A stretch of DNA of 23,039 nt. Origin: a virus. The position numbers and the translations under genes are program-made. Below the pieces are notes generated by a model. The model saw only the letters and a program-made list of their open reading frames with translations, was not told where the DNA came from and did no database searches. This document shows positions 40 through 15,664 of the stretch, piece after piece. The stretch's first letter is position 1; every line of letters starts with the position of its first letter. The stretch is from positions 1 through 23,039 of IMG/VR virus record IMGVR_UViG_3300036846_000511, one strand, 5' to 3'.

Positions 40-345
40 GTGACTGATGCGAAACGATCGGCCCGGGAGCGCCGCCGCCGGGGCCGGAACGAGATCGCTT
101 TGGACCTGGACCTACGCCGCCATCCGGATCTGGCCCGGGCCCAGCGGTCCTCGTTGCGTAGCCTGGCCGCGCTGCTGGACCGGGCCGAACGTGACGGCGA
201 TCTAGAGGCCGGCCCTAGGATCGCCCATGAGTTCCACGGTCAGCTCGCCTCCGCCGGTATCGCTGTCGCCCCCATCGAACGGGTCGAAACGCTCGAAGAT
301 TTCCTGCGGGCCACCGCCGGCGCTCGCCACACCGAGGACCTCTAG
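40..345 (+). CDS. Putative terminase small subunit (TerS)
   Basis: A 101-residue basic protein starting at GTG 40. It has an Arg-rich N-terminus (residues 6-16) followed by a predicted helical stretch (about residues 30-72) rich in Leu, Arg and Ala. Small terminase subunits bind the packaging site and hand DNA to the large subunit. I assign the role mainly from position, directly upstream of the large terminase and next to an HNH gene at the other end of the window, plus size and helix content; no diagnostic motif is visible. Its last 119 nt overlap the start of the large subunit in another frame, which is unusually long. Only a weak purine-rich element precedes the start. Moderate confidence in TerS, good confidence that it is coding. 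Confidence 0.6.
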   Translation: MTDAKRSARERRRRGRNEIALDLDLRRHPDLARAQRSSLRSLAALLDRAERDGDLEAGPRIAHEFHGQLASAGIAVAPIERVETLEDFLRATAGARHTEDL

Positions 346-1717
346 CCGCCTGAGTGTCGGCCCGGCGGTGGCCGACTGGGCGGAACGGATGGGACGGCCG
401 CTCATGCCCTGGCAGCGCCAGGCGGCCGACGTGGGCCTCGAGGTTGACGATCAGGGCCGGTTCTGTTTCCAGCTGGTCGTGATAACCACTCCTCGCCAGT
501 CCGGCAAGACCACACTCGAAGGGGCGGTACTCGAGCAGCGGGGCGCTACCTTGCCGAGGGCCCGCTGCTGGTTCACGGCCCAGTCCGGCAAGGACGCCGT
601 TGACTGGTTCCTGAACGAGCACGAACCCCTGTTGGCGGCCGGTTTCCGGGGCGGTTACAAGCTGCGCCGGGCGCAGGGGTCCGAGTTCGTCCGCTGGCAT
701 CATTCGGGCGGCCTGGTCCGGCCATTCCCGCCGACACCGGACACCTTGCACGGCAAGACGGCCGATCTGGTGATCGTGGACGAGCCGTGGTCGTTCGACC
801 TGGTCCGGGGCACCCAGCTGGATCAGGCTTTGGTGCCGACGATGGCCACGAAACCGAACGCCCAGGTGTGGAAGTTCTCGACGGCCGGCGACGCCTCGAG
901 CACCTGGTGGCTGGGGACGGTGGAGGCCGGCCGGACCGCGGCCCGCGCCGGTCGTACCAGCGGAATCTGCTATTTCGAGTGGTCCTGCCCGGATGGTCTC
1001 GATCCTTGCGATCCGGTCTCATGGCCGTTGTACCATCCCGCCTACGGGCGGACTATCGGCCCGGAGGCCATGACCGCGGCACTGGACATGCTCGGCGTCG
1101 ACGGGTTCACCAGAGCCTACGGGAACCGCTGGGTATCGACGTTGGAGCGGGTGATCCCGTTGGGGGCGTGGCGGGCCGCCCGAGACGACGACCAGGCCCT
1201 GCCGGAGCGTGGGCGGGTGGCGCTCGGCTTCGATGTGGCCGTCGATAGGAGCGACGGGGCGATCGTGGCGGCGTGGCGGGACGAGGGCGGGGTGGCGCAT
1301 GTGGAGGTGGCGGATCAGCGGCCCGGGGTGGGTTGGCTGCCGGGTCGTCTCGGCGAGCTGGTGGAACGCTGGCAGCCGGTCGCGGTGGTCTATGACGCGG
1401 CGGGCCCGGCTCTGGATGTGGCCGACGCTGCCGGCCGGGCCGGCCTCGAGCTGGAGGGGTTGAAAGCCCGGGAGTATGCGGCGGCGTGTCTGGGCCTCCT
1501 GGAAGCCCTGATAGCCGACCCGCCCGGGTTGCGGTACCGGAACCATCCGGCCCTCGACAGCGCCGCTAACGATGCCACCAGGCGGGCGTTGGGGGACGCC
1601 TGGGCGTGGGGGAGAAGACAGTCGGCCGGGAGCCTGGCCGCCCTGACCGCGGCCACCGTGGCGGTGTGGGGTTGGGATCATGCTCCCGCCCAGCTGGGAG
1701 ATTTCCGCATCTACTGA
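227..1717 (+). CDS. Terminase large subunit (packaging ATPase/nuclease)
   Basis: The DNA-packaging motor: the ATPase powers translocation into the prohead and the C-terminal nuclease cuts the concatemer. Visible motifs are the adenine-binding-type PWQ (61-63), Walker A TTPRQSGKT (87-95), Walker B LVIVDE (181-186), a coupling motif FSTAGD (217-222) and nuclease-type acidic residues in GFDVAVDRSD (D336, D340). About 496 aa is usual for actinophage TerL. Start choice: ATG 227 has AGGA six bases upstream and is the only start that keeps the family-like TPRTSSRLSVGPAVADW segment. GTG 368 would avoid overlapping TerS but would remove it. Residues 1-35 are Ser/Pro-rich and look constrained by the TerS frame. 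Confidence 0.93.
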   Translation: MSSTVSSPPPVSLSPPSNGSKRSKISCGPPPALATPRTSSRLSVGPAVADWAERMGRPLMPWQRQAADVGLEVDDQGRFCFQLVVITTPRQSGKTTLEGAVLEQRGATLPRARCWFTAQSGKDAVDWFLNEHEPLLAAGFRGGYKLRRAQGSEFVRWHHSGGLVRPFPPTPDTLHGKTADLVIVDEPWSFDLVRGTQLDQALVPTMATKPNAQVWKFSTAGDASSTWWLGTVEAGRTAARAGRTSGICYFEWSCPDGLDPCDPVSWPLYHPAYGRTIGPEAMTAALDMLGVDGFTRAYGNRWVSTLERVIPLGAWRAARDDDQALPERGRVALGFDVAVDRSDGAIVAAWRDEGGVAHVEVADQRPGVGWLPGRLGELVERWQPVAVVYDAAGPALDVADAAGRAGLELEGLKAREYAAACLGLLEALIADPPGLRYRNHPALDSAANDATRRALGDAWAWGRRQSAGSLAALTAATVAVWGWDHAPAQLGDFRIY

Positions 1718-1749: not shown

Positions 1750-2958
1750 GTGTCCATGGTGTGGTCCCGCAACCCGGGTCCGTGGACTGTCGGCCGCCCG
1801 TCGTCGGGGGCGCCGTCGCTCAGGTTTAATCCGCCGGACGGGACGAACGCCATGGTCGGCCCGTTCGTGTGGGACGCCACTTCGGCCCGGCAGATCCCGG
1901 CCGTAGCCCGCTGCCTGCAAATCTATTCCGGTTTGGTCCGCCAGATGCACATGGACGTCTACCGGGGCGACCAGAAGCTGCCCCGACCCCGCCTGCTGGA
2001 ACGCCCGGACCCTCTGAATGCGGGCTCCTGGTTCGTCGGCATTTCGGTCGAGGACTATCTGCTGTCCGGGAACGCCGTGGCGCTGATCACCTCGAGAGGT
2101 GTCGACGGCTGGCCGCTGACCGTCCAATACCTGCCCATCAACTACGTGTACATCGTCTGGATCCCCGGCCAGGCGTTACCGGATTATTACTTTTACGGCC
2201 AGCCTTTGCCGGTCGAGGACGTCGTCCACGTGAAACGGGGCGCCGACCGCTGGTTCGGCGCGGTGCGGGGGGTGGGGATCGTGGAGGAGGCTATGGGCAC
2301 CCTGGATCGGGTGGCCATGGAAGAGGTGTACGAGTCGGCCACCCTGGCCGGCGCCGCCGTACCGTCGGTGGCCATCGTCACCCCGCAGGCCACGCTGACG
2401 CAGGAGGTCGCCGACGAGGCGGCCGCCAACTGGGACATCAAATACGGGGGCCCGAACCGGCGGCCGGCCATCCTCCCCAACGGCACCCAGGTCATCCCCC
2501 TGGCCTGGTCGCCGAGTGACACGCAACTGATCGAAGCCCGCCACATGTCCTTGACGGACACTGCCAACCTGTTCAACCTGGACGGCTACTGGCTGGGCGC
2601 CCCGGTGGCGGGGATGACCTACCGGACCGCATCGCCCCAATATCAGCAGGTGTTGAGGACCAGCCTGGCGCCGGTGCTCGCCGATTTCGAGGACGTCTGG
2701 TCGTACAACTGGCTGCCAAGGGGTCAGAACATCCGGTTCGACCGGGCCCAGCTGCTGGCGGACGATCTGACCGTCACCTCGAACGCCGCGGTGGCCGTCT
2801 ACCAGGCTGCCATCTCCACATTGGACGAGGCCCGGGCGGCCGTGAACCTGCCACCCACCGACGAGCCCACCGGCCCGCCGGCCCCGCCGCCGCCGGCCGT
2901 CATTGCTGCCCCACCGGCGGCGGCGGACCAACCCATGCAGGAGGTGCCGGCCAAATGA
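1750..2958 (+). CDS. Portal protein (HK97/SPP1-type family)
   Basis: Dodecameric portal at the unique capsid vertex, through which DNA enters and exits and to which the terminase and connector dock. The 402-aa length is typical of the Phage_portal family. The protein has the expected order: N-terminal region with VARCLQIYSGLVRQM, then LLERPDPLNAGSWF and SVEDYLLSGNAV, a central DVVHVKR strand, and the crown/stem region with QYQQVLRTSLAPVLADFEDVW. The C-terminus (about 375-395) is a Pro/Ala-rich tail. Start GTG 1750 is used here; ATG 1756, two codons later, is equally possible. Its last four bases overlap the protease start (ATGA), indicating translational coupling in the head operon. Confidence 0.92.
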   Translation: MSMVWSRNPGPWTVGRPSSGAPSLRFNPPDGTNAMVGPFVWDATSARQIPAVARCLQIYSGLVRQMHMDVYRGDQKLPRPRLLERPDPLNAGSWFVGISVEDYLLSGNAVALITSRGVDGWPLTVQYLPINYVYIVWIPGQALPDYYFYGQPLPVEDVVHVKRGADRWFGAVRGVGIVEEAMGTLDRVAMEEVYESATLAGAAVPSVAIVTPQATLTQEVADEAAANWDIKYGGPNRRPAILPNGTQVIPLAWSPSDTQLIEARHMSLTDTANLFNLDGYWLGAPVAGMTYRTASPQYQQVLRTSLAPVLADFEDVWSYNWLPRGQNIRFDRAQLLADDLTVTSNAAVAVYQAAISTLDEARAAVNLPPTDEPTGPPAPPPPAVIAAPPAAADQPMQEVPAK

Positions 2959-3575
2959 CCGAACCCGAACTCCGCGATTTCACCACCGTTCTGCGGGAGA
3001 CCCAGGCGGTGGGCCGCCCGTACAAATATCTGGAGGGCCGGGCCGTCCCCTACGACGAGTGGACGATGGTGCGCACCGAGTTCGGGAAGTTCCTCGAGCA
3101 GCACCGTCACGGCAGTTTTAAGCGGTCCACGTCGCCGGCCCGCCCGGCCGGCCAGAAACTGCCCCTGCTGCTGTTCCACGACAACCGGTCGTTCCCGATC
3201 GGCCACGCCGAATCCTGGTCGCACCCGGCCGACGGCCTGCACGGCGTGTGGAAGTTGAACGACTCGCCGGAGGCGCAGCGGGCCGGGCGGGCCGCCGAAT
3301 CGGGGGATCTGGTCGGCCTGTCGATCGGGTTCAACGACGCCGGCAGCCCGGCCTGGGAGGACGGCGACCCGTTCTCGGACGATCCGGACGAGCTGCCCCG
3401 GGTCACCCGATTGGAGTCCCGCCTGATCGAGGTGTCGATGACGCCGACGCCGGCGTTCGAGACGGCCGGGATAACCATGGTCCGCACCGCCTGGCGGCCG
3501 CCGACCCCACCGCCGCCGGTACCCCGGGAGGTGGATCGCTGGCGGCGGATCGCCGACCAGCTACGATCCGGTTAG
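2955..3575 (+). CDS. Prohead protease, HK97 family (S78-like)
   Basis: Maturation protease that digests scaffold and trims capsid subunits during head assembly. A 206-aa protein with the family's catalytic signatures: His75 in LLLFHD, Ser123 in GLSIGF, and an acidic residue in LIEVSMTPTPAF (Glu159) as the likely third member. ATG 2955 overlaps the portal stop (ATGA). The gene lies immediately before the major capsid gene, the canonical position. The N-terminal 30 residues (up to KYLEGRAVPYDEW) begin the protease fold directly, so the enzyme appears not to be fused to a separate scaffold. The Arg-rich C-terminus lies past the fold and may be a self-processing tail. Confidence 0.92.
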   Translation: MTEPELRDFTTVLRETQAVGRPYKYLEGRAVPYDEWTMVRTEFGKFLEQHRHGSFKRSTSPARPAGQKLPLLLFHDNRSFPIGHAESWSHPADGLHGVWKLNDSPEAQRAGRAAESGDLVGLSIGFNDAGSPAWEDGDPFSDDPDELPRVTRLESRLIEVSMTPTPAFETAGITMVRTAWRPPTPPPPVPREVDRWRRIADQLRSG

Positions 3576-3702: not shown

Positions 3703-5037
3703 ATGAATCCTGTACTGGACCGTTTGCGTACCCAGCGCGCCGAGCAGATGGCGGCCATGGACGCCGTGCTGTCCCAGGTGTCCGATGACCGGGACCTGGT
3801 CGACGCCGAAAAGTCGCTGTTGACGGCGACACAGCAGCGGCTGGGTGAGATCGACGCCCAGATCAAACCGCTCGCCGACTACGAGGAGATGCGGGCCGCC
3901 CACCAGGCCGCCGCCGCCGCCCTGCCCCAACCCCAGCCGGGCCGGTTGCCGGCCGTACCCCGACGGGCCGACGGCGGCGAACGCGACGTCCAGTACCGCA
4001 GCGCCGGCGAGTTCCTGGTCGACTATATCCGGTCGCGGGGTATCGCCGACCATCAGCCCGACCCGCAGGCCCAGGCCCGGGTGACGGCCGCCTACCAGGC
4101 GAGGGTCGTGGCCGACCAGAAAACCACGGATACTCCCGGCGTGCTGCCGACCCCGATCATCGGCCCAGTCGTCGATCTGATCGACGCCAACCGGCCGCTT
4201 ATTTCGAGTCTGGGCGGCGCCAAAGGGATGAGTTTCGCGGGGGCCAGTTTCTCCCGACCGAAGATCACCCAGCACACCACCGTCGGATTGCAGGCGGCCG
4301 GCGCCGGCGAGAAAACGCAGCTGTCCTCCCAGAAAATGACCATTAGCCCGGTCACATTCAACAAGGCCACCTACGGCGGGACGGTCGACATTTCGAGACA
4401 AAGCATCGACTGGACGTCACCTGGGGCCTGGGACATCCTAGTGCGAGATCTGGCCCAGGTGTATAGCGTGCAGACCGAGACGGCGGTAGCGGCCGCGTTC
4501 AAGGCGGCGTCGACGGCGACACCGGTGGTGGTGGCCACCAATGACCTGAAAGGCTGGACGCTGGCCCTCTATACCGCCGCCATGCATGCTTATCAGGCGT
4601 CGTTCATGATGCCGAACCGGATCTGGTGCAGCCTGGACGTGTGGGCCGCCCTCGGTTCGCTGGTCGACGTGGCCCGGGTGGCCATACCTCAGGACCGCAC
4701 TTCGGAGATGGGCGCGCCGGGCACTTCGACGCTGGCCTCGTTCAACGGTGACCTGCTGGGCTTGCCCCGTATCGTCGTCCCCACGTTTGTGGCCGGCACC
4801 TGTTTTGTCGGCAACTCCAGCCTTTATGAGGTGTACGAGGAGGTGATCGGACTGCTGTCGGTTATCGAACCGTCGATCCTGGGTGTGCAGGTCGCCTATG
4901 GCGGTTATGTGGCGTTCGGGACCCTGTCGGCGACCGGGATCGTCGGTCTGACGGCCCCGGCCGGTATGCCGACCATGGCCGAACTCGAAGGCGAACCCCA
5001 ACCCGAAGCCGAAGAGGCTCCGAAAGCCAAAAAGTAG
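3703..5037 (+). CDS. Major capsid protein, HK97 fold
   Basis: The icosahedral shell subunit. The 444-aa product begins with a helical, coiled-coil-like region (about 1-75; LRTQRAEQMAAMDAVL, LTATQQRLGEIDAQI) that resembles the scaffold-like delta domain of HK97-family capsids, expected to be removed by the adjacent protease. The linker is Ala/Pro-rich (about 72-90). The shell domain follows, with recognisable segments such as SRPKITQHTT, a region containing TYGGTVDISRQSIDW, and the late GGYVAFGTLSATGIVGL. The C-terminus (about 425-444) is a charged Glu/Lys/Pro tail. A strong GGAGG site upstream fits a highly expressed gene. Confidence 0.95.
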   Translation: MNPVLDRLRTQRAEQMAAMDAVLSQVSDDRDLVDAEKSLLTATQQRLGEIDAQIKPLADYEEMRAAHQAAAAALPQPQPGRLPAVPRRADGGERDVQYRSAGEFLVDYIRSRGIADHQPDPQAQARVTAAYQARVVADQKTTDTPGVLPTPIIGPVVDLIDANRPLISSLGGAKGMSFAGASFSRPKITQHTTVGLQAAGAGEKTQLSSQKMTISPVTFNKATYGGTVDISRQSIDWTSPGAWDILVRDLAQVYSVQTETAVAAAFKAASTATPVVVATNDLKGWTLALYTAAMHAYQASFMMPNRIWCSLDVWAALGSLVDVARVAIPQDRTSEMGAPGTSTLASFNGDLLGLPRIVVPTFVAGTCFVGNSSLYEVYEEVIGLLSVIEPSILGVQVAYGGYVAFGTLSATGIVGLTAPAGMPTMAELEGEPQPEAEEAPKAKK

Positions 5038-5043
5038 GCCCGG

Positions 5044-5874
5044 ATGGGCTGGGATCTCGACGAGTGCGGCAGCTGGGGTATCGCCTACTGCGACAACCCG
5101 GCCACCGAGATGGCCGCGGTCCTGGCGTTGCCAGGATCGTGGCCGATGGGCGCCCAGCCCTCCGCGTTCGTCCGCAACGACCAGTGGAAAAACATTCCCA
5201 CCGGGCCCACCATCCCGCCGGTCGCCGGTTATACGATCTGGTATGACGCCTCCCAGATGACCGGGCTGGCCGACGGCGCCAAGGTCGCCACCTGGGCGGA
5301 CGTGACCGGACCGAACACGCTCACCCAGGCCACCCCGGCCAATCAGCCCGCCTATTTCAAAACCACGGCCGCCAACTTGATCAACGGTCATCCGGCTGTC
5401 AAGTTCGACGGCACTACGTCGTTCATGGTCGGCCCGGCCAGCCAGCCCGTCGACCACCCTCAACCGGTCAGTTTCGTGTTCGTCTGCCAACCGGTGGCCG
5501 TGCCGTCCGGGAACGCTCCGCTGCTCGTCGACAACGCCTACACCGGCACCTACGCGGTTGCCGCCGTCTGGGGTCAGTATGCGGGCGCCAATGCCAGCAC
5601 CAGCCTGCCCGTAACAGCCGGCACTTCCTATTTTCTGGTATCCATTTTGAACGGTGCGACGTCGACGATGACCGCCAACGCCACCACCTCGGCGGCGATC
5701 AATCCAGGCACCCTCGGTTATGCAACTTCGTCGCAGTTCCAGGTCGCCAAAAGTCCATCCAATATCTATTTCTCGGTACTGATAGGCGAAATGCTGGCGT
5801 ACCCGTTCTTGCTCAGCCCGGCCCAGATCACCTCGCTACGCACGTACGCCCAGTCGAAATGGGGGACACCCTGA
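5044..5874 (+). CDS. LamG/ConA-like domain protein, candidate virion decoration protein
   Basis: A 276-aa protein with two parts. Residues 1-52 form a short module (GSWGIAYCDNPATEMAA, LALPGSW, VRNDQW) shared in diverged form with the next two genes. Residues about 62-276 resemble a LamG/concanavalin A-like jelly roll: WYDAS near its start, then DGAKVATWADVTG, AVKFDGTTSFM, and a late ILNGATSTMTANA segment ending in ITSLRTYAQSKWG. LamG domains commonly bind glycans. The gene starts six bases after the capsid stop, where head decoration proteins are often encoded. Decoration or host/mucus adhesion is therefore plausible but inferred. It has no signal peptide. The stop TGA overlaps the next ATG by one base. 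Confidence 0.72.
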   Translation: MGWDLDECGSWGIAYCDNPATEMAAVLALPGSWPMGAQPSAFVRNDQWKNIPTGPTIPPVAGYTIWYDASQMTGLADGAKVATWADVTGPNTLTQATPANQPAYFKTTAANLINGHPAVKFDGTTSFMVGPASQPVDHPQPVSFVFVCQPVAVPSGNAPLLVDNAYTGTYAVAAVWGQYAGANASTSLPVTAGTSYFLVSILNGATSTMTANATTSAAINPGTLGYATSSQFQVAKSPSNIYFSVLIGEMLAYPFLLSPAQITSLRTYAQSKWGTP

Positions 5875-6302
5875 TGGCCTGGACCACACTGATGACGGCC
5901 GGGTCGTGGGGGATCGCCACCACCACCGCCCCGGCCACCGACCTGGCCGCCGTGCTGGCCCTGCCCGGCTCCTGGTTGTATGACACCAACCCATCGGGCG
6001 GCAAACAGCGGGTCTATGTGCGCAAAGACCAGTGGGGCAGCCTGCTGGCCACCCCGAACGTGGATCTCATCAACCCCAACTATGGCACCTCTACCGGTGG
6101 TACGCCGGTGACGATCTCGGGTGAAGGGTTGACCGGGTCGACCGGCGTCACCTTCGGCGGTACCGGCGGTACCGCCTTTTCGGTCGCCTCCGACGCTTTG
6201 ATCCGAGTTACCACCCCGGCCCATGCCACCGGCACGGTAGCGGTCGTGGTGGCCAACCCGCGCGGCAATGTCACCATCTCCAACGGATACACCTACAGCT
6301 GA
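5874..6302 (+). CDS. IPT/TIG Ig-like domain protein sharing the capsid-adjacent N-terminal module
   Basis: A 142-aa protein starting at ATG 5874 (TGATG overlap with the previous stop), preceded by GGGGGA about seven bases upstream. ATG 5859 is in frame, but it lies inside the previous gene and has no comparable site. Residues 1-55 (AGSWGIATTTAPATDLAAVLALPGSW, VRKDQW) repeat the N-terminal module of the preceding protein. Residues about 60-142 look like an IPT/TIG immunoglobulin-like domain: INPNYGTSTGGTPVTISGEG, a central TGVTFGG, then VRVTTPA-like and VVVANPRGNVTISNGYTYS ending. Such Ig-like domains are frequent on phage capsid and tail surfaces. Likely a surface-exposed virion accessory protein; the attachment point (capsid versus tail) is not shown by sequence. 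Confidence 0.75.
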   Translation: MAWTTLMTAGSWGIATTTAPATDLAAVLALPGSWLYDTNPSGGKQRVYVRKDQWGSLLATPNVDLINPNYGTSTGGTPVTISGEGLTGSTGVTFGGTGGTAFSVASDALIRVTTPAHATGTVAVVVANPRGNVTISNGYTYS

Positions 6303-6721
6303 TGTCGGACTGGCAACTCATGGCCCACGAGATCCAGCTGCCCGTCCAGGCCGAGCAGGCCATAGCTGTGCCGGCCGGCTGGGAGCCGATCAGCACCCTG
6401 TCCCGCCAAGGGAACAAAGCGGTTGTCCTGTTACGCCGCCAAGCCCAGTACACGCCGCCATCGACGGCGCCGGTGTTGACGTCGCTGACCCCGAACACTC
6501 TCGCCTCCGGCGGGGTGCCGGCCACCATCGACGTGATCGGGACCGGGTTCGACGCCTCGACCACTATCGACGCCGACGGCCAGCCCAGGGCCACCTTCTA
6601 TCTTGACGCCACCCATCTGGAGTACACGGCCCGCCCCGACCTGACCGGCCCGTCCACCGTCCAGATCACCGTCGTGAACTCGAACGGCACCTCCAACCCG
6701 CTGCCGTTCACGTACACCTGA
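6302..6721 (+). CDS. Second IPT/TIG Ig-like domain protein of the same modular family
   Basis: A 139-aa protein coupled to the previous gene by TGATG. Residues about 1-50 are a more diverged copy of the shared module: IAVPAGW matches LALPGSW, and VVLLRRQAQY corresponds to VYVRKDQW. The linker TPPSTAPV leads into an IPT/TIG domain (about 60-139): LTSLTPNTLASGGVPATIDVIG, a FDASTTIDADG segment, YTARPDLTGPSTVQITVVN, and a closing NPLPFTYT strand. Likely another surface accessory protein. Three consecutive genes with the same anchor and variable displayed domains suggest duplication followed by domain exchange. Function is inferred from position and fold only. Confidence 0.72.
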   Translation: MSDWQLMAHEIQLPVQAEQAIAVPAGWEPISTLSRQGNKAVVLLRRQAQYTPPSTAPVLTSLTPNTLASGGVPATIDVIGTGFDASTTIDADGQPRATFYLDATHLEYTARPDLTGPSTVQITVVNSNGTSNPLPFTYT

Positions 6722-7056
6722 TGGCGTACTGGCCGAAACTCCCCGAAGTCAGATCGTTGCTCCGGTTGCAGCCGGACGCGGTCGAGGACGGCATTATCAC
6801 CACCGCCCTGGCCGCCGCTATCGACTACGGCAACCGCCGCCTCAACTACAAATATCCGATCCCACCATCAGATAACGGCACCCTCCCCGACGTCGCCCAC
6901 GAAGCCTGCCTGTTCCATGCCGCCCGCCTCTACCGCCGCCGCGACAGCATCGACGGGACACTCGGTTTCGGCGATCTCGGCGTCGTCCGGGTGGGCCGGG
7001 TGGACGCCGACATCGAAGCCCTCTATTCGTCGGTCGGACCTTTGGTGTTCGGATGA
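6721..7056 (+). CDS. Head-tail connector/adaptor protein (gp6-like)
   Basis: A 111-aa, mostly helical protein whose size, composition and place after the capsid block fit the ring adaptor that binds the portal (HK97 gp6/SPP1 gp15-like). Visible features are PEVRSLLRLQPDAVEDGIITTALAAA, with a DYGNRRLNYKY segment, then HEACLFHAARLYRRRDSIDGTLG and a C-terminal DADIEALYSSVGP. The helix with LYRRRxSIDG and the following G-F-G-D-L-G loop are typical of these connectors. Start ATG 6721 overlaps the upstream stop (TGATG), and the stop overlaps the next ATG (ATGA). The specific family is a recollection from pattern, not a search. Confidence 0.75.
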   Translation: MAYWPKLPEVRSLLRLQPDAVEDGIITTALAAAIDYGNRRLNYKYPIPPSDNGTLPDVAHEACLFHAARLYRRRDSIDGTLGFGDLGVVRVGRVDADIEALYSSVGPLVFG

Positions 7057-7436
7057 CCTGGAACCGCCAGACTGCGGCCGCCGCCATCACCAGCGCCCTG
7101 CAGGTGACGTTGGGGGAGACGGTGTGGGTCTACTCGAAGCCGCCGGGCACGGTGAACCCGCCGGCGGTGATCGTGGGCCGCCCCACCGAGGTCCGTTACA
7201 GCATCCCGGCGTTCTCGATCGACGAAGCAACCTTGCCGGTCACCTGTGTGGGCCCGGTAGACGGTGACGATGTGGTCGACCAGCTCGCCGCCCAGGTCCG
7301 CGCCAGCTTTCCGGATCCGACCCTCGGGGGTGTGGTGCAAGCCTGCTGGCCTACCGATGAGCGGGCCTGGCGGCAAGCCTCGATCGCCGGCGTCGACGTC
7401 CTTTTGGCCGACGTGAACCTGACCATCCAAATGTAA
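7053..7436 (+). CDS. Tail terminator / tail completion protein candidate
   Basis: A 127-aa protein between the connector and the major tail protein, coupled to the connector by ATGA. The alternating hydrophobic pattern (PPAVIVGRPTEVRY, VDVLLADVNLTIQM) with a central helix (DDVVDQLAAQVRASF) fits the alpha/beta fold of tail terminator proteins, which cap the tail tube and form the interface to the head. Position and size support this. A head-closure role is the main alternative, because the HK97-gp10-like gene is displaced to after the major tail gene. The next gene's ribosome binding site lies just after its stop. Confidence 0.6.
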   Translation: MTWNRQTAAAAITSALQVTLGETVWVYSKPPGTVNPPAVIVGRPTEVRYSIPAFSIDEATLPVTCVGPVDGDDVVDQLAAQVRASFPDPTLGGVVQACWPTDERAWRQASIAGVDVLLADVNLTIQM

Positions 7437-7450
7437 AGAAAGGTTGCCCT

Positions 7451-8149
7451 ATGTCGGTTATCGAAGACGAAGCGAACGGCCCGCCCGAAGTCTCTCTTAC
7501 TGCGGCAGGGGATCCGACCCCGCCGGTAGCCACCCCGCTGATATTGAACGACGCTTACTTCGAGATTGGTGGCGTAAATCTGCGCTGTCTGGTGCAACAT
7601 CTCGAGGTGTCGCCGGAGGTGAAACTGGTGACGGTCACCTCGTTTTGTGCGGAGACCGATTATCCGGGCGTAGTGAAGTGGCATTTGCGGGTGACGTTTT
7701 TCCAGAGCTTCGATGTGGGGGCCACGTTCGCCACTTTGAACACTGCGCTGGCTGCCTATACGGCGTCGGGGACGCCGGTCAACTTCAAGGCCCGCCCCTA
7801 CTCCTCGAGGGTGGCCGCCACCAATAATCCGATCATCTCCGGGCTGGCCATACCGCAACCGTTCGAGCTGATCGGCGGCGACGCCGGCACCGCCTCCCAG
7901 GTCCAGATCGACTGGAACCTGACCGCACCCCCCACCATCGACACCGGTGCGGTCACCGCCACCGGGGCTACCGCCGGCCAGCCCGGCTTTTATACGCCCT
8001 CCGGTGCGACCGTACCGGCCAACCTGGCCGCCCTCACCGGTATTACGGCCACACCGGCCACGGCGTGGACGGTCGGCCAGTACTGCATAACGGCCGATTT
8101 ACTGGCGGCTCACTGGAGTGGCAGCGCCTGGGTTGCAGGCAAAGCCTGA
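7451..8149 (+). CDS. Major tail protein (tail tube)
   Basis: A 232-aa protein that would polymerise into the tail tube. The core (about 30-165) carries typical tube features: an N-terminal strand/loop with LNDAYFEIGGVNLRCLVQHLEV, then LVTVTSFCAETDYPGVVKWHLRVTFFQSF, and a later QVQIDWNL strand. Residues about 168-232 form a Thr/Ala/Gly-rich extension that includes TPSGATVPANLAALTGITATPATAW and ends ITADLLAAHWSGSAWVAGKA. This may be a decoration lobe on the tube surface. AAAGG precedes ATG 7451 at good spacing. The last 40 bases overlap the 3' end of an HNH gene on the other strand. Confidence 0.85.
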   Translation: MSVIEDEANGPPEVSLTAAGDPTPPVATPLILNDAYFEIGGVNLRCLVQHLEVSPEVKLVTVTSFCAETDYPGVVKWHLRVTFFQSFDVGATFATLNTALAAYTASGTPVNFKARPYSSRVAATNNPIISGLAIPQPFELIGGDAGTASQVQIDWNLTAPPTIDTGAVTATGATAGQPGFYTPSGATVPANLAALTGITATPATAWTVGQYCITADLLAAHWSGSAWVAGKA

Positions 8150-8586
8150 TGTTTCTGCCACCAGGCCCGACCACGGTTGGCGGTGTCGTGGTTATTGTCC
8201 GCCCGGCTGCCCGACAAGAGGTGCTCGAGACGTACGCAACACGGCCGGTCGCAGGTGTGGCGGACGATGATGCCAGACGGGATCGACCCGTGCTCATGCT
8301 GATAGATCCACCGGTGGGCCAGCCAGTTCCGGCCATCGGTCGTTTTGAACCGCCCATAGCCTGGCCATGGTGCACGGGGAGCACGAACAAAAGGACCTGT
8401 CCAGTCCAGGCAGTCGCCGTTCGGTCTGATGTGCGAAGCGAAGCGAAGCGCTTCGTCGATCATGCGCGGAGGGCCGCCTCCCATCGGGTCGCCGTGTCGG
8501 CGCCAGCGCCGATAGTGCTTATCGCACAACTGCCAACCCACGACCCGACCGCTGCAACCATCGATCCGGCACATCAACTGCACCAT
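8110..8586 (-). CDS. HNH endonuclease (HNH_3 type) on the opposite strand, likely free-standing homing endonuclease
   Basis: A 158-aa protein encoded against the tail operon. The N-terminus has a zinc-binding-like set (C6, C11, C21, H24) followed by YRRWRRHGDP. The catalytic HNH region contains AHRWIYQHEHG (90-100), VRHTCDRPCCV (108-118) and EHLLSGSRADNNHD (121-134), the order expected of HNH_3 nucleases. The start is ATG at 8586-8584, because upstream codons in this frame lie within the gp10-like gene and look non-coding. It fills the gap between the tail tube and gp10-like genes, overlaps the tail tube gene's 3' end, and faces opposite to every neighbour. Together these point to insertion of a mobile endonuclease gene. 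Confidence 0.85.
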   Translation of the reverse strand: MVQLMCRIDGCSGRVVGWQLCDKHYRRWRRHGDPMGGGPPRMIDEALRFASHIRPNGDCLDWTGPFVRAPRAPWPGYGRFKTTDGRNWLAHRWIYQHEHGSIPSGIIVRHTCDRPCCVRLEHLLSGSRADNNHDTANRGRAWWQKHQALPATQALPLQ

Positions 8587-8609
8587 AGTCCATGTGAGGA
8601 GGCGGCCTG

Positions 8610-9050
8610 ATGGCGCAGGCGCCGTTAGCCCAGATCGTCGGTTTGAAAGCGTTGCAACGAGACTTACGGAAAATGTCGGATCCGGCCGCCGGGGTGCTGG
8701 CCAAAGCATTGGCGCAGGCCGGCAAGGACGCCCTGGGCCCGGTCGCCGACGCCGTCCGCAACGCCTACCCGTCCCGAACGGGTGCGCTGCGGGGCACGGT
8801 CCGGGTGACCGGATCCCGGACCGGGGCGGCCGTCCGGGTGGGTTCCAAGAAGTTGCCGTACGCCGGGCCGGTCGATTTCGGCGGCTACCCCGAAGGCCGC
8901 CCATACGTGAAGGACGGCCGCTACCTGTATCCGACCGCCCAGGCTCACACCGGTGCGGCGGTCCGCCGTTACGAGCAGGCCGTCACGCAGGTGTGCGAAC
9001 GGTTTCCGTGGACGAACACCGCTACGAACCCGGGGGGCGTCCATGATTAA
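8610..9050 (+). CDS. HK97 gp10-like head-tail/tail completion protein
   Basis: A 146-aa protein with the pattern of the HK97-gp10 family: an N-terminal GLKALQRDLRKM helix, a long helix ending DAVRNAYPSRTGALRGTV, then strands VRVTGSRTGAAVRVGS and a PYAGPVDFGGYPEGRPYV loop (in this family usually YA...hefG), with a C-terminal helix RRYEQAVTQV. Members act at the head-tail joint. A strong AGGAGG site lies upstream of ATG 8610. In most related genomes this gene precedes the tail terminator and tube genes; here it follows the tube gene and is flanked on both sides by HNH-type genes. Its 3' end overlaps the following gene by 8 bases. Confidence 0.8.
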   Translation: MAQAPLAQIVGLKALQRDLRKMSDPAAGVLAKALAQAGKDALGPVADAVRNAYPSRTGALRGTVRVTGSRTGAAVRVGSKKLPYAGPVDFGGYPEGRPYVKDGRYLYPTAQAHTGAAVRRYEQAVTQVCERFPWTNTATNPGGVHD

Positions 9051-9354
9051 GGACAAGGAGGCGCAGCGCCGATATAAGCGCGAATACATGCGGATCTGGT
9101 CTAAGACAGACCGTGGCAAAGAGGCCCACCGAAAGACTCAGCGTCGGTACGAGCGCAAGAATCTTGATATCTCGGCCGCGCATACGGCCGTAAGTCGAGC
9201 CATTGCCAGAGGTAGGCTGGTCAGGCCCGGGGTCTGTCCTGAGTGCGCACAGCCCGGGTCCGTCCAAGCCCATCACTACCTGGGATACGCCAAGGAACAC
9301 CAGCTCGACGTGGTCTGGCTGTGTGGTCCCTGTCATATGAAGGTTCACTTATGA
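9043..9354 (+). CDS. Small HNH-like / zinc-binding endonuclease
   Basis: A 103-aa basic protein. Residues 1-45 are very rich in Lys, Arg and Tyr (DKEAQRRYKREYM, HRKTQRRYERKN), a likely DNA-binding helix. The C-terminal half has CPEC (65-68), then QAHHYLGYAKEHQLDVVWLC with CGPCHMKVH (94-102). This matches the small phage HNH-like nuclease pattern, with His77/His78 as candidate catalytic residues. ATG 9043 overlaps the gp10-like gene's end by 8 bases. The stop overlaps the tail chaperone start (ATGA), so the gene is fully embedded in the operon. Its codons include more A/T-ending ones than neighbouring genes, consistent with later acquisition. Confidence 0.75.
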   Translation: MIKDKEAQRRYKREYMRIWSKTDRGKEAHRKTQRRYERKNLDISAAHTAVSRAIARGRLVRPGVCPECAQPGSVQAHHYLGYAKEHQLDVVWLCGPCHMKVHL

Positions 9355-11467: not shown

Positions 11468-11857
11468 ATGGCTGACAACATTTCGACCGGGGTCGCCAAC
11501 TCGGTCCTCGGCCTGCTGTTGAACGGCACCGGGTTCGCCGGGTTCTCGGCCACCTACGTCAAACTGCATGTCGGCGCGCCCGGCGCGGCCGGGACCAGTA
11601 ATCCGGCCGGTAACACCACCCGCCAGGCCGCCGGCGCCTTCGCCACCCCGGCCGGCGGGTCGACGACCAATTCGGCGGCCATCAACTGGACGTCGGTCAG
11701 CACCAGCGAAACGTATTCGCACGTGTCGCTATGGGATGCGGCCACGTCGGGGACGTTCATCGCCTCCGGGTCGATCGCCGCCAGTGCGATCCTGGCCGGC
11801 CAGAACTTTCAGATCCCCGCCGGCGGCATGACCGTCTCGCTGCCCGTCGCATCCTAA
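11468..11857 (+). CDS. Small tail-fibre-like protein
   Basis: A 129-aa Ser/Thr/Gly/Ala-rich beta protein: MADNISTGVANSVLGLLLNGT, a central YVKLHVGAPGAAGTSNPA, then NTTRQAAGAF and a YSHVSLWDAATSGTFIASGSI stretch. This resembles a small family seen beside tape measure and minor tail genes in actinophages, annotated as tail fibre or minor tail protein. GAGGAAC precedes ATG 11468 and the gene starts six bases after the tape measure stop. No transmembrane segment or catalytic motif is visible. It probably sits at the tail tip or tail side; the exact role is not shown by sequence. Confidence 0.6.
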   Translation: MADNISTGVANSVLGLLLNGTGFAGFSATYVKLHVGAPGAAGTSNPAGNTTRQAAGAFATPAGGSTTNSAAINWTSVSTSETYSHVSLWDAATSGTFIASGSIAASAILAGQNFQIPAGGMTVSLPVAS

Positions 11858-11866
11858 GCAGCTCTT

Positions 11867-13333
11867 GTGGCCGCCGCGTTCGTCAACAGCACTACCGGCT
11901 CGGCCGCCGGGGTCACTTCGATCACGATCAACGCCCCCGCCTCCATAGTCTCCGGGAACCTGCTGATCTGCCACGTCCTGTCAGCCGGCCAGAACGGCAC
12001 CTTCTCTTCTACCGGCTGGACGGCGGTGCAACCCGGCACGCGTACCGCCGTCCTGTGGAAGACGGCCGGCGGCTCCGAACCCGGCTCGTACACGTTCACC
12101 TATACCGGGCCGTCTACCACCATGACCGGCTATATCGCCCAATATTCGGGTGTTACGACACCCGAGATCGTCAACGTCGACGCCGGTGTATCCGCGACCA
12201 GTTCCACGTTCTCGTCGATCTCGCCTACCGGTTCGAACGACCAGCTGCTGTTGTCGGCGCTCATCCAGTCCCATACGACCGTCTCGACACCCCCCACCGG
12301 TGTCGTGTCCCGGGTGTCCAATGCGGGTGTCGGCGCCTACCTGTGGGACAAGACCCTTTCGGCGGCGGGGGCGACCGGCACGAACACGATCGCCTTGTCG
12401 GCCTCCGATCTGATCTGGACGGCCGAGCTGGCCGTGACACCGTCGGCGATCACCACGGTCACCGGTACCGCCACGGTCACGGTCGGCCCGTTGGCGGTCG
12501 CCACCGGCCCCGGTGTTCTGGACGCCTGTCTGCGCAAAGCGTGGCTCACCCTCGGCGATCTCGACGTGTCGCTCGAGGACCCCGGCCAGGGCTATTTCTG
12601 CACCCAGCTGGATCTGGGTTTCCCGACACCACGTGATGTCATGTCCAGTAATCCGGACCGGGACGGCCAAACCGACCGCACCCAGTACCTCTCTTCGAGG
12701 GTGGTGACGGCGAATATCACCACCCTGGCCGGTGCGGGCGGCCGTATCGACCAGGTGGCGGCCCAGTTCGCGCCGTTCATGCTTCCCTCCAACCGGGCCG
12801 TCCTCCACTATGTGCTGGACCGGCCCGGCCTCCCGGAGCGGACGTTGACGGTCCGGGGCTCCGGCTATTCGTGGCCGATCTCCGGCCCCGCCCAACGGGA
12901 CATCCAACTCCAATGGGTCGCCGCCGACCCCGTCGCCCGCGACCCGACCCCGAAAACGGCGACCGCCTTCGCCGTCACCCCGGCCACGCTGACCCCGGCC
13001 GGCGACATCCCGGTCCGACCCCGGTTCCGGATCAGCGGGCCTACCACCGGCCCGGCCGTCATCCTCACCCCGGCCGGCGGCCTGTCCTGGTATCTGGCCT
13101 TCCAGGCCGGTTTCACCATCGCCCTCGGCCATTACGTCGACATCGACACCGACGCCCGCACCGTCCTGGCCGACGGCGACCCGGCCCAACCCCGCCTGAG
13201 CTCGATGGACTGGACGGTGTCGTCGTGGCAGTGGCTGCCGGCCGGGGTGGCCACCCACATGGTGTTGACCGGTTCGGCCACCACCGGGCTGACCCAGGTC
13301 CAGGCGTTCTGGAACGACGGCTACCTGACGTGA
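11867..13333 (+). CDS. Distal tail protein (Dit-like) with an N-terminal beta-sandwich domain
   Basis: A 488-aa fusion. Residues 1-197 form a Ser/Thr-rich beta domain (FVNSTTGSAAGVTSITINAPA, GTFSSTGWTAV, YTFTYTGPSTTMTGYIAQYSGV) like adhesive or carbohydrate-binding modules. Residues 199-213 are the linker GTATVTVGPLAVAT. Residues 216-488 are the Dit-like tail core (LRKAWLTLGDLDVSLEDP, TQYLSSRVVTANITTLAG, LTVRGSGYSWPISGPAQRDIQLQWVAADPVARD). Dit forms the hub ring at the tail end. Dit proteins carrying carbohydrate-binding insertions are known from other phages. Start GTG 11867 has only weak ribosome binding potential. The linker is repeated in the next protein. Confidence 0.78.
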   Translation: MAAAFVNSTTGSAAGVTSITINAPASIVSGNLLICHVLSAGQNGTFSSTGWTAVQPGTRTAVLWKTAGGSEPGSYTFTYTGPSTTMTGYIAQYSGVTTPEIVNVDAGVSATSSTFSSISPTGSNDQLLLSALIQSHTTVSTPPTGVVSRVSNAGVGAYLWDKTLSAAGATGTNTIALSASDLIWTAELAVTPSAITTVTGTATVTVGPLAVATGPGVLDACLRKAWLTLGDLDVSLEDPGQGYFCTQLDLGFPTPRDVMSSNPDRDGQTDRTQYLSSRVVTANITTLAGAGGRIDQVAAQFAPFMLPSNRAVLHYVLDRPGLPERTLTVRGSGYSWPISGPAQRDIQLQWVAADPVARDPTPKTATAFAVTPATLTPAGDIPVRPRFRISGPTTGPAVILTPAGGLSWYLAFQAGFTIALGHYVDIDTDARTVLADGDPAQPRLSSMDWTVSSWQWLPAGVATHMVLTGSATTGLTQVQAFWNDGYLT

Positions 13334-13342
13334 TCTAGGGCT

Positions 13343-15664
13343 ATGGCCACGATTTACGCCAGCATCTCCGGGTCGCCCACCCTCGAGGTCATCGACAGCA
13401 CCACCGCCACCGTCGTGGCCACCCTGACCCCGGCGTTTTCGGCCCCGTCGATCGCTGTGTCACCCGACGGCCAGTGGCTGGCTTTGGCCTCCAACACCCC
13501 CCAAATCCAGTTCATGAACACGGCCACCCGGACGTTCGGGTCGGTTATCACCACCGGTCTGACCTCGGTGATGGCCCTGGTGTGGGCGCATGACAGTTCC
13601 GTCGTCTACTGCTCGGGCCCGTACGGTGTGCAAACCTGCACACCGACCGGGACGTTGGGCGGGGTGGGCGTGGTCTCCGATGCCAGCACCGCGGCCTTCC
13701 AGGCGGCCCTGTCGCCGGACGGTTCGCACATCTATGTGTCCGCCGGCGCCAACGTGTACGAGCTGACCACCAGCCTGTACGCGTTCACCAAAACGTATAC
13801 CGGGCTGTCCCGGGCGGTCGGCCTGTGCGTGTCCGCCGACGGGCACACCCTTTATGTCGCCGACTATTTGACGCCCGGCACCCTCTATTCGATCAACATT
13901 GCTACCGGCACCGCTATAACCGAGGGCGCCAACAACCAGCCCGGCTGGCTGCTGCTCTCACCGGACGGCACCAAACTGTGGTGCGCCGAGCACGCCTCCG
14001 GCCTGGTCCAGGTCTTCGACGCCGCCAGCGGCGCCGTCCTGCAGTCGATCAGCGCCGACCAGGCGTACAAGATGACGTTCACGCCGGCCGGTACCGAGGT
14101 GTGGGTCGGGACGTTGGGCGGCGACGTGTTCCCCATCGATACCACCACCTACACGGCCGGTGTCGGGGTGACCGGTCTCGGCGGCGTCCTGTCCGTGGCG
14201 GCCACCCCGCCCACCCCGGGCGGCCCGCCCGCTGTCGCCGCGGTCACGGTCGGCCCGCTCACCATCACCGCCGCCTCGACGATCACCTCTACCGGTATCA
14301 GCGGCACCGCCACCCTCAACCTGGGGCCGCTGGTGGTGCGGGCGTCGGACACGCTCGACACCCGGCTCGGTACCGCCACCCTGGTGATCGGCCCGTTACG
14401 GGTCGCCGCGGTGACCGCCATTCCCGGCCCGGGCGGTTTCCCCATCCCCGGCTACCGGGGCCGCTGGCGGCTCACCCTGCACAACCGGACGTTTACGCCG
14501 GCCACGCTCGCCTCGACGATGATCGCCGAGCTGGCCGACGCCCGCGGCCGCCAACTGGTCCAGGCGTGGGGGACGCCGGCCATGCTCACCTTCAGCATGG
14601 ACGGCCACTCCCAGGCCGCCGCCCTCATCGCCGAGCTCGAGCAGGACGTGGTGGCCTGGCGGTACGACGACCAGACCGGTATCGAAATGGCCGTGTTCCG
14701 GGGGCCGATCACCACCAGCGAGGATCAGATCACCACCGAATCCCACACCGTCACCTACACCGCCCATGATTATGCCGCCGTCCTGACCCGCCGCCTGCTG
14801 ACCGGCACCGGCCCCTACAGCGTGACCGGCCGCGACCAGGATTTGATCGCCTCCGACCTTCTCTCGGCCGCCTCCACCGCCCAATCGAGCTCGGGGGTGT
14901 CGTTCAGCCCGGCGTCGTATATTCCGGTCACGTTGGCCACCGTCAACCCCGACGGCACCACCCGGGGCCTGTCCACCCGCCTCCGCGACCGCACCTATTA
15001 CGCCTCCCAAAACGTCTTTGACGCCCTCGACGCCCTCTCGAAGGTCAGCCACGGGTTCGACTGGGACGTCCAACCCTCGGCGGTGAACACCACCGACAGC
15101 CTCCGCCTCTTCTACCCGGCCCAAGGCGTCACCCGCACCGACGGCATCGCCCTGCAGTACGGATCGACCGTGGCTTCGGTGACCAGGAGCGTGTCGTCCG
15201 CCGACTACTCGAACTATGTCCGCGTCCTCGGTAACAACTCGAGTTCGACGCCGACCCCCCAAAAGTACAGCGAGGACTGGGGGCCGACCGCCCTGGCCAC
15301 CACCACCCCGGTCGGCCTGTGGATGACCGGCAACGACGCCGCCGACGTCACCGTCCAATCCACCCTCGACGACAAAGCCGCCGGCGACCTGGCCCTGGAC
15401 GCCATCCTGGTCCCCCACTACACCCTCGGATTGACACCCGGCGCCTACCGGTGGGGCAGCCCGAACATGGGCGACACCGTCCCCCTCATCGTCAACAGCG
15501 GCCGCCTCGACGTCAACACTTCGGTCCGGGTATTGGGGATCACCTGGGATATCGGCGACGACGGCCAGGAAGACGTGTCTCTGGTCGTATCCCGACCCCC
15601 CAAAACCCTCAGAGAGCTGTTCTCCAGCGCCGACCGCGACATCAAAAGCTTGGCCCGCAGATAG
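13343..15664 (+). CDS. Baseplate hub / tail-associated protein with an N-terminal beta-propeller
   Basis: A 773-aa fusion. Residues about 1-290 form a YVTN/WD40-like beta-propeller: blade motifs recur about every 42 residues (SPDGQWLALAS at 40, AHDSSVVYCS at 82, SPDGSHIYVS at 124, SADGHTLYVAD at 164, SPDGTKLWCAE at 206, TPAGTEVWVGT at 248), implying six or seven blades. Residues about 298-358 contain three linker strands of the type GTATLNLGPLVV. From about 370 the protein resembles the ReqiPepy6 gp37/gp27-type hub (FTPATLASTMIAELADARG, VFRGPITTSEDQITTESHTVTYTAHDYAAVL, MGDTVPLIVNSG, VRVLGITWDIGDDGQEDVSLVVSRP). Likely a hub that carries its own receptor-binding head. Confidence 0.8.
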   Translation: MATIYASISGSPTLEVIDSTTATVVATLTPAFSAPSIAVSPDGQWLALASNTPQIQFMNTATRTFGSVITTGLTSVMALVWAHDSSVVYCSGPYGVQTCTPTGTLGGVGVVSDASTAAFQAALSPDGSHIYVSAGANVYELTTSLYAFTKTYTGLSRAVGLCVSADGHTLYVADYLTPGTLYSINIATGTAITEGANNQPGWLLLSPDGTKLWCAEHASGLVQVFDAASGAVLQSISADQAYKMTFTPAGTEVWVGTLGGDVFPIDTTTYTAGVGVTGLGGVLSVAATPPTPGGPPAVAAVTVGPLTITAASTITSTGISGTATLNLGPLVVRASDTLDTRLGTATLVIGPLRVAAVTAIPGPGGFPIPGYRGRWRLTLHNRTFTPATLASTMIAELADARGRQLVQAWGTPAMLTFSMDGHSQAAALIAELEQDVVAWRYDDQTGIEMAVFRGPITTSEDQITTESHTVTYTAHDYAAVLTRRLLTGTGPYSVTGRDQDLIASDLLSAASTAQSSSGVSFSPASYIPVTLATVNPDGTTRGLSTRLRDRTYYASQNVFDALDALSKVSHGFDWDVQPSAVNTTDSLRLFYPAQGVTRTDGIALQYGSTVASVTRSVSSADYSNYVRVLGNNSSSTPTPQKYSEDWGPTALATTTPVGLWMTGNDAADVTVQSTLDDKAAGDLALDAILVPHYTLGLTPGAYRWGSPNMGDTVPLIVNSGRLDVNTSVRVLGITWDIGDDGQEDVSLVVSRPPKTLRELFSSADRDIKSLARR

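Follow-up and report, generated by a model that had tools for sequence, protein, structure and literature searches.

A shuffled gene cassette beside a phage major capsid gene encodes candidate head-decoration proteins with two unrelated N-terminal modules

What is the role of three small genes lodged between the genes for the major capsid protein (MCP) and the head-tail connector of a tailed phage, and on which part of the particle might their products act? The question is raised by a single virus contig of 23,039 bases (IMGVR_UViG_3300036846_000511, not necessarily a complete genome), analysed over its whole length and called the window here, in which the structural genes follow the standard order for a tailed phage and three intact genes, p1, p2 and p3, lie in order between those two genes, directly 3' of the MCP gene (Table 1). 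We propose, with a probability of roughly 0.7, that they constitute a variable, shuffled capsid-decoration cassette built on two unrelated anchors, with the MCP, a member of an HK97-type family, as the presumed docking partner.

The cultured relatives of the MCP come from mycobacteriophages (about 35-42% identity) and one bacterial genome, that of Phytomonospora endophytica, has an MCP relative (48% identity); hence, the host is likely to be an actinobacterium. Several other genes of the window were noted alongside. HNH-type endonuclease genes on both strands break into the head-tail and tail cluster (8110-8904, minus strand; 8953-9354, plus strand; matches to HNH_3, E=1.3e-11, and to the endonuclease family phrog_2340, E=6.3e-22), and a gene located after that for the tape measure and before the Dit-like one (11468-11857, plus strand) matches PF23140 Gp80 'fiber I' and phrog_240 'head protein' with E about 1e-20. 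A 773-aa tail protein (13343-15664, plus strand) resembles a beta-propeller at its N-terminus (Pfam E=8.7e-10, under the family cut-off) and continues into a weak Prophage_tail match. On the minus strand, the product of 17308-17925 matches the unnamed family phrog_24928 (E=2.6e-32) and no Pfam family, and contains an 'NPGYCYLMAGW' stretch that we take to recall Mom-type DNA modification proteins.

Table 1. Positions of the genes, modules and domains discussed (window coordinates unless a contig is named)
Feature	Positions	Strand	Remarks
Terminase	227-1717		
Portal	1750-2958		
Protease	2955-3575		
MCP	3703-5037	+	phrog_2263 E=1.8e-46; Phage_capsid_4 E=2.8e-9
MCP residues 277-287 (VATNDLKGWTL)	4531-4563	+	best separator of MCPs with and without cassette; column comparison
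p1	5044-5874	+	276 aa; module A + LamG/ConA-like
p1 residues 1-56, module A	5044-5211	+	proposed anchor; homologous to p2 N-terminus; 33-member profile
p1 residues 57-276, LamG/concanavalin A-like	5212-5871	+	proposed display domain; phrog_11772 E=3.3e-5; L018 homolog
p2	5874-6302	+	142 aa; module A + IPT/TIG; longer ORF starts at 5859
p2 residues 1-59, module A	5874-6050	+	full-protein AlphaFold2 model, pLDDT 87
p2 IPT/TIG domain	6054-6296	+	Pfam TIG E=7.8e-12; Foldseek matches among solved IPT/TIG structures (best E=3e-6)
p3	6302-6721	+	139 aa; module B + IPT/TIG
p3 residues 1-53, module B	6302-6460	+	unrelated to module A; AlphaFold2 pLDDT 91
p3 IPT/TIG domain	6470-6715	+	Pfam TIG E=2.6e-9; Foldseek to solved IPT/TIG domains
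Head-tail connector (Ad1-like)	6721-7056	+	3' border of variable slot; phrog_5938 E=5.5e-8
Tail terminator	7053-7436		
Major tail protein	7451-8149		
Upstream-site genes	L045:1174-1587; L046:3687-4100; L048 ORF 900-2153, last ~135 aa; L021:3065-3907		

Three adjacent genes and their two-part products

A one-base overlap of stop and start codons (TGATG) occurs at the p1/p2, p2/p3 and p3/connector (6721) junctions, so that the set looks translationally coupled, as a prior reading made from the sequence alone (the sequence-only reading) had proposed for three genes directly after the capsid gene. A fusion of MCP and p1 by readthrough or frameshifting was also considered, p1 lying in the MCP frame behind a TAG stop and six bases, but the frame offset varies among relatives and the idea was rejected. 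Comparison with the related contig L002 finds p2 and p3 under purifying selection (dN/dS about 0.1); protein identity is 91-96% for p2, p3 and the connector and 50% for p1, whose N-terminal module (61%) is better conserved than its LamG part (47%).

The same reading had aligned the N-termini of all three proteins. This stands for p1 and p2, whose alignment score of 136 compares with 24.7 +/- 4.9 for shuffled sequences (z=22.7; reached by 0 of 2000 shuffles), and at the level of sequence the two share a module, here module A, beyond doubt. It fails for p3: the p2-p3 score was reached by 175 and the p1-p3 score by 566 of 2000 shuffles (z=0.5-1.5), which is chance level, as is the resemblance once seen in the p3 motifs IAVPAGW and LRRQAQY. 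Profile alignment and structure prediction, the checks suggested at the outset, divide the proteins in the same way. The profiles of module A and of the p3 N-terminus, module B (33 and 13 sequences), match with an hhalign probability of 2.3%, and AlphaFold2 predicts a strand-strand-helix-strand-helix arrangement for module A (p2 residues 3-57) and a three-stranded sheet without a helix for module B (p3 residues 4-47). Shuffles, profiles and predicted fold thus rule out a common module that would include p3.

Neither module leads back to a described family. Module A matches no known Pfam, PHROG or PDB family, its one match, to DUF7586, falling below the cut-off (E=0.0035, residues 24-55) and offering a lead at most, and nothing of note was found for module B among the same collections. 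When module A and the p3 profile were compared with the sequences in the PDB, no capsid anchor was matched. Further, the 50,697 cultured phage records surveyed contain no relatives of p2 or p3, and the 84,980 bacterial and archaeal genomes contain no module A.

The C-terminal parts agree with what had been read from the sequence, a LamG-like domain being supported in p1 and IPT/TIG confirmed in p2 and p3. The latter two exceed the Pfam gathering cut-off for IPT/TIG (PF01833; 45.5 bits for p2 and 37.4 bits for p3, against 20.9), and their AlphaFold2 models, together with the Pfam and Foldseek matches to TIG, present a two-part architecture of a small putative anchor followed by an Ig-like beta-sandwich domain. 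PDB structure searches, one per full-length model and dominated by the TIG domain, gave among the matches listed only IPT/TIG-like or other Ig-like domains. p1 itself matches no Pfam family, LamG/ConA-like (PF13385) included, and its assignment comes from phrog_11772 and from its homolog in L018, which matches Laminin_G_3 (E=9.6e-7; 29.5 bits against a cut-off of 27.6).

The slot between the capsid and connector genes in related phages

We examined the MCP-connector slot in 77 contigs in which both flanking genes could be located, obtained from IMG/VR by three protein and two module searches. In this sample, which is limited by having been gathered by MCP similarity, which contains a few near-duplicates and to which the window and L001, a copy of it, contribute at most one entry each by locus name, 35 contigs have an empty slot, 23 a single gene, 13 two genes and six three. 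The cassette is accessory, given the 35 empty slots, and a set of such proteins, earlier taken to be unusual, is less so than supposed, for two or three genes occupy 19 of the 77 slots and two Hoc-type proteins occur in T4-like phages (PMC10385173).

Among the slot genes, module A is joined to TIG in 38, to a LamG domain in six and to a CBM_4_9-like domain in two (L102, Pfam E=4e-6, above the cut-off; L004, E=0.043), and module B is joined to TIG in 13 and stands alone once (L069, 63 aa). The order varies as well: the set starts with the LamG gene in L002, L003 and the window, and ends with it in L018, L029 and L035. Other occupants include a collagen-like protein and an LtfC-like one in L022, further genes of unassigned type, and a protein of L015 with a weak match to 'Hoc-like head decoration' (E=7.9e-4). 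The search for the module in other phages with other C-terminal domains was thus answered, module A being found with TIG, LamG, a CBM_4_9-like domain or nothing. The idea of a single virion-binding module with interchangeable domains survives in its second half, the slot contents being evidently shuffled, and gives way in its first, with p3 carrying module B; the pattern of anchor plus interchangeable domain is supported, but with two putative anchors.

The same modules and domains recur at other places in these genomes. A second insertion site, about 2 kb upstream of the MCP gene and, to judge from the distance, probably separating the terminase and portal genes, accommodates module-A-like + TIG proteins (in L045, L046 and L048) or a LamG protein (Table 1). 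In L113, whose capsid slot is empty, a lone module A of 54 aa (6001-6165) overlaps the stop codon of a gene for an amidase endolysin, and two small hydrophobic ORFs come next; this arrangement is an exception that weighs against the proposal. Two proteins of ~110 aa look similar by eye, one encoded in the MCP-connector slot in L015 (6231-6551) and the other just upstream of the endolysin gene of L113 (4681-5052), a hint that genes move between the two sites. In L054 (2076-2705) and L055 (3982-4593) the head-tail connector has a TIG-like domain as an N-terminal fusion, and Dit-like proteins carry N-terminal LamG (L045:8559-10691) or TIG domains (L023:9944-11104; L081:8994-10952), with a different beta-rich N-terminal domain in the Dit-like protein of the window (11867-13333). 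Since the Dit-like proteins thus differ in their N-terminal domains, the tail tip shows the same kind of domain exchange, and since TIG and LamG are also fused to Dit-like and connector proteins, the display domains are not specific to the head.

Co-inheritance with the capsid gene and the probable place on the particle

In genomes as mosaic as these, the part of the particle to which the cassette belongs can be approached through the neighbouring gene with which it is inherited. We mapped the presence or absence of the module-bearing cassette onto trees of 59 contigs, and the number of occupancy changes is two on the MCP tree, 10 on the connector tree and 13 on each of the protease and major tail protein trees (FastTree: 2, 9, 13 and 15, respectively), with at least 14 changes on the MCP tree when the labels are shuffled. 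The difference is not due to alignment length, because random MCP subsets of 111 columns, the length of the connector, give 2-4 changes; the C-terminal half of the MCP gives two changes against eight for the N-terminal half. Pairwise comparison agrees: within the closest 5% of pairs, occupancy is concordant in 99% for the MCP, 67% for the protease, 62% for the connector and 59% for the major tail protein, where 49% is expected. One comparison illustrates the point best, L023 and L026 being 98% identical to L034 in the connector and 95-96% in the tail protein but 70% in the MCP, with the cassette present in the former two and absent from the latter, the capsid gene and cassette having been exchanged as a pair.

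The association of MCP and cassette falls mostly in one clade, as the two changes imply, and linkage from adjacency contributes to it. However, the connector gene abuts the cassette as closely as the MCP gene does, yet does not track it, so that distance alone fails to explain the asymmetry; a functional fit between cassette and shell might do so. The co-inheritance with the capsid gene therefore favours an anchor on the capsid over one on the tail. Comparison of 27 cassette-positive with 32 cassette-negative MCPs picks out residues 277-287 as the segment that best separates them, a clade-level correlation that reflects mostly one clade and has exceptions in L059 (cassette-type loop, empty slot) and L069 (loop of the other type, module B present), and we regard this segment as a lead only; sequence searches found no PDB relative of the MCP on which to place it in a solved capsid.

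The same data bear on an alternative that we consider unlikely, namely that p1-p3 decorate the tail tube or neck and that their genes are merely located in the head cluster. Domains of the same kind are indeed fused to the Dit-like proteins of L045, L023 and L081 and to the connectors of L054 and L055, and Ig-like domains are common on tail tubes (PMC13033339). Against this, the type of major tail protein has almost no bearing on whether the cassette is present (13-15 changes; 59-61% concordance), and the connector tracks the cassette only among the nearest pairs of all (85% concordance within the top 2%, falling to 62% within the top 5%), where the MCP stays at 99-100%. Slightly less probable still is a role as capsid assembly or stabilisation (cement) factors, with the TIG and LamG domains binding other capsid subunits in place of outside ligands: the co-inheritance with the MCP would fit this equally well and decoration proteins often act as cement (PMC7602432), but the proteins are absent altogether from 35 of the 77 contigs, and the free exchange of LamG, TIG and CBM-like C-terminal types, along with the faster divergence of the p1 C-terminal domain relative to its module, suits outward ligand binding better. 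That p1-p3 are non-virion, moron-like accessory genes that chance to occupy this junction is improbable, for although the slot also accepts collagen-like, LtfC-like and unassigned genes and a lone module A lies beside the endolysin gene of L113, the one-base overlaps with the structural operon on the same strand, the purifying selection, the association with MCP type and the detection of the Corndog slot protein in virions (PMC4351075) all speak against it.

Under the decoration reading, the three proteins would be made by coupled translation right after the MCP and would then bind the assembled or expanded head, their N-terminal modules (A in p1 and p2, B in p3) docking on the outer face of the shell and their C-terminal beta-sandwiches (LamG-like in p1, IPT/TIG in p2 and p3) pointing to the medium. 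On the virion, the displayed domains may make low-affinity contacts with host cell-wall glycans or other polysaccharides and so keep the particle near its host, while recombination would swap the displayed domain, add or remove whole genes, and carry the cassette along with whichever capsid gene it fits. A more far-reaching form of the proposal is one that we hold only tentatively, at a little under even odds: modules A and B would be two unrelated and previously undescribed capsid-anchor folds that form a display system of up to three proteins at distinct shell sites, on which TIG, LamG-like and CBM-like domains are exchanged like cartridges, each anchor suiting its own capsid lineage, so that capsid and cassette would be passed on as one while the rest of the genome is reshuffled.

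If this is true, these phages possess a natural set of small anchors repeatedly joined to different binding domains, head-surface variation extends to phages outside the T4 and T5 groups, and the modules, of about 55 residues, become candidate anchors for protein display on phage heads. More generally, asking with which neighbour an accessory cassette is co-inherited in mosaic genomes offers a means of predicting its location on the particle.

Comparison with known decoration systems

Among the closest parallels is pb10 of phage T5, a decoration protein whose N-terminal domain binds the capsid and whose C-terminal domain is Ig-like (PMC5292684). The window proteins resemble it in the small N-terminal putative anchor with one Ig-like domain that would be exposed, in size (164 aa for pb10), in being accessory, and in having an anchor more conserved than a mobile display domain. 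They differ in that the pb10 anchor is all-alpha with five helices, whereas module A is predicted to be beta-beta-alpha-beta-alpha and module B to consist of three strands, and in that the window group has up to three proteins and several types of display domain. Membership of the pb10 family by descent was rejected, the predicted mixed alpha/beta fold of A and all-beta fold of B being at odds with its all-helical capsid-binding domain; the PDB sequence searches showed no homology to pb10 either.

In T4 Hoc, too, the capsid-binding domain is kept and the Ig-like domains vary, and Muldoon and PG7 have two Hoc-type proteins (PMC10385173), just as Sf14 has two decoration proteins, including gp20 (PMC11821841); a conserved capsid-binding domain with variable Ig-like domains is the feature that Hoc and gp20 have in common with the present set. 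Exchange of the displayed domain has a precedent in PG7, where a GDSL lipase sits on the Hoc-type anchor (PMC10385173). The Hoc anchor, however, is usually C-terminal and preceded by strings of Ig domains, whereas p1-p3 carry single domains, are putatively anchored at the N-terminus and use two unrelated modules. Descent from the Hoc family was likewise rejected, as neither module A nor the p3 profile matched it among PDB sequences and the listed Foldseek matches were IPT/TIG or other Ig-like domains.

Among phages of actinobacteria, the mycobacteriophage Douge bears Ig-like domains on its capsid and tail tube, and their labelling of the host surface has been demonstrated (PMC13033339). The likeness lies in the many beta-sandwich domains on the surface of an actinobacteriophage, binding to host surface glycans being a property of those of Douge; the difference is that these domains are built into the MCP and tail-tube proteins and do not form separate decoration proteins. 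Cultured relatives of the MCP offer a counterpart by position, the genes for Corndog gp42, Firecracker gp40 and MooMoo gp6 lying directly after the MCP gene and before the connector gene and encoding proteins of 47-82 aa. Mass spectrometry of purified virions detected Corndog gp42, which is encoded directly after the capsid protein gp41 (PMC4351075); it is equivalent to p1-p3 in position but not homologous. The slot proteins of Firecracker, MooMoo and prophiGD91-2 are low-complexity and charged, with no similarity to TIG, LamG or modules A and B.

By analogy, then, the window proteins may work as pb10 and Hoc do, on unrelated anchors. The kind of system is already known, and what appears to be new is the anchors, how many proteins there are and how varied their displayed domains, and the inheritance of the cassette together with the shell protein.
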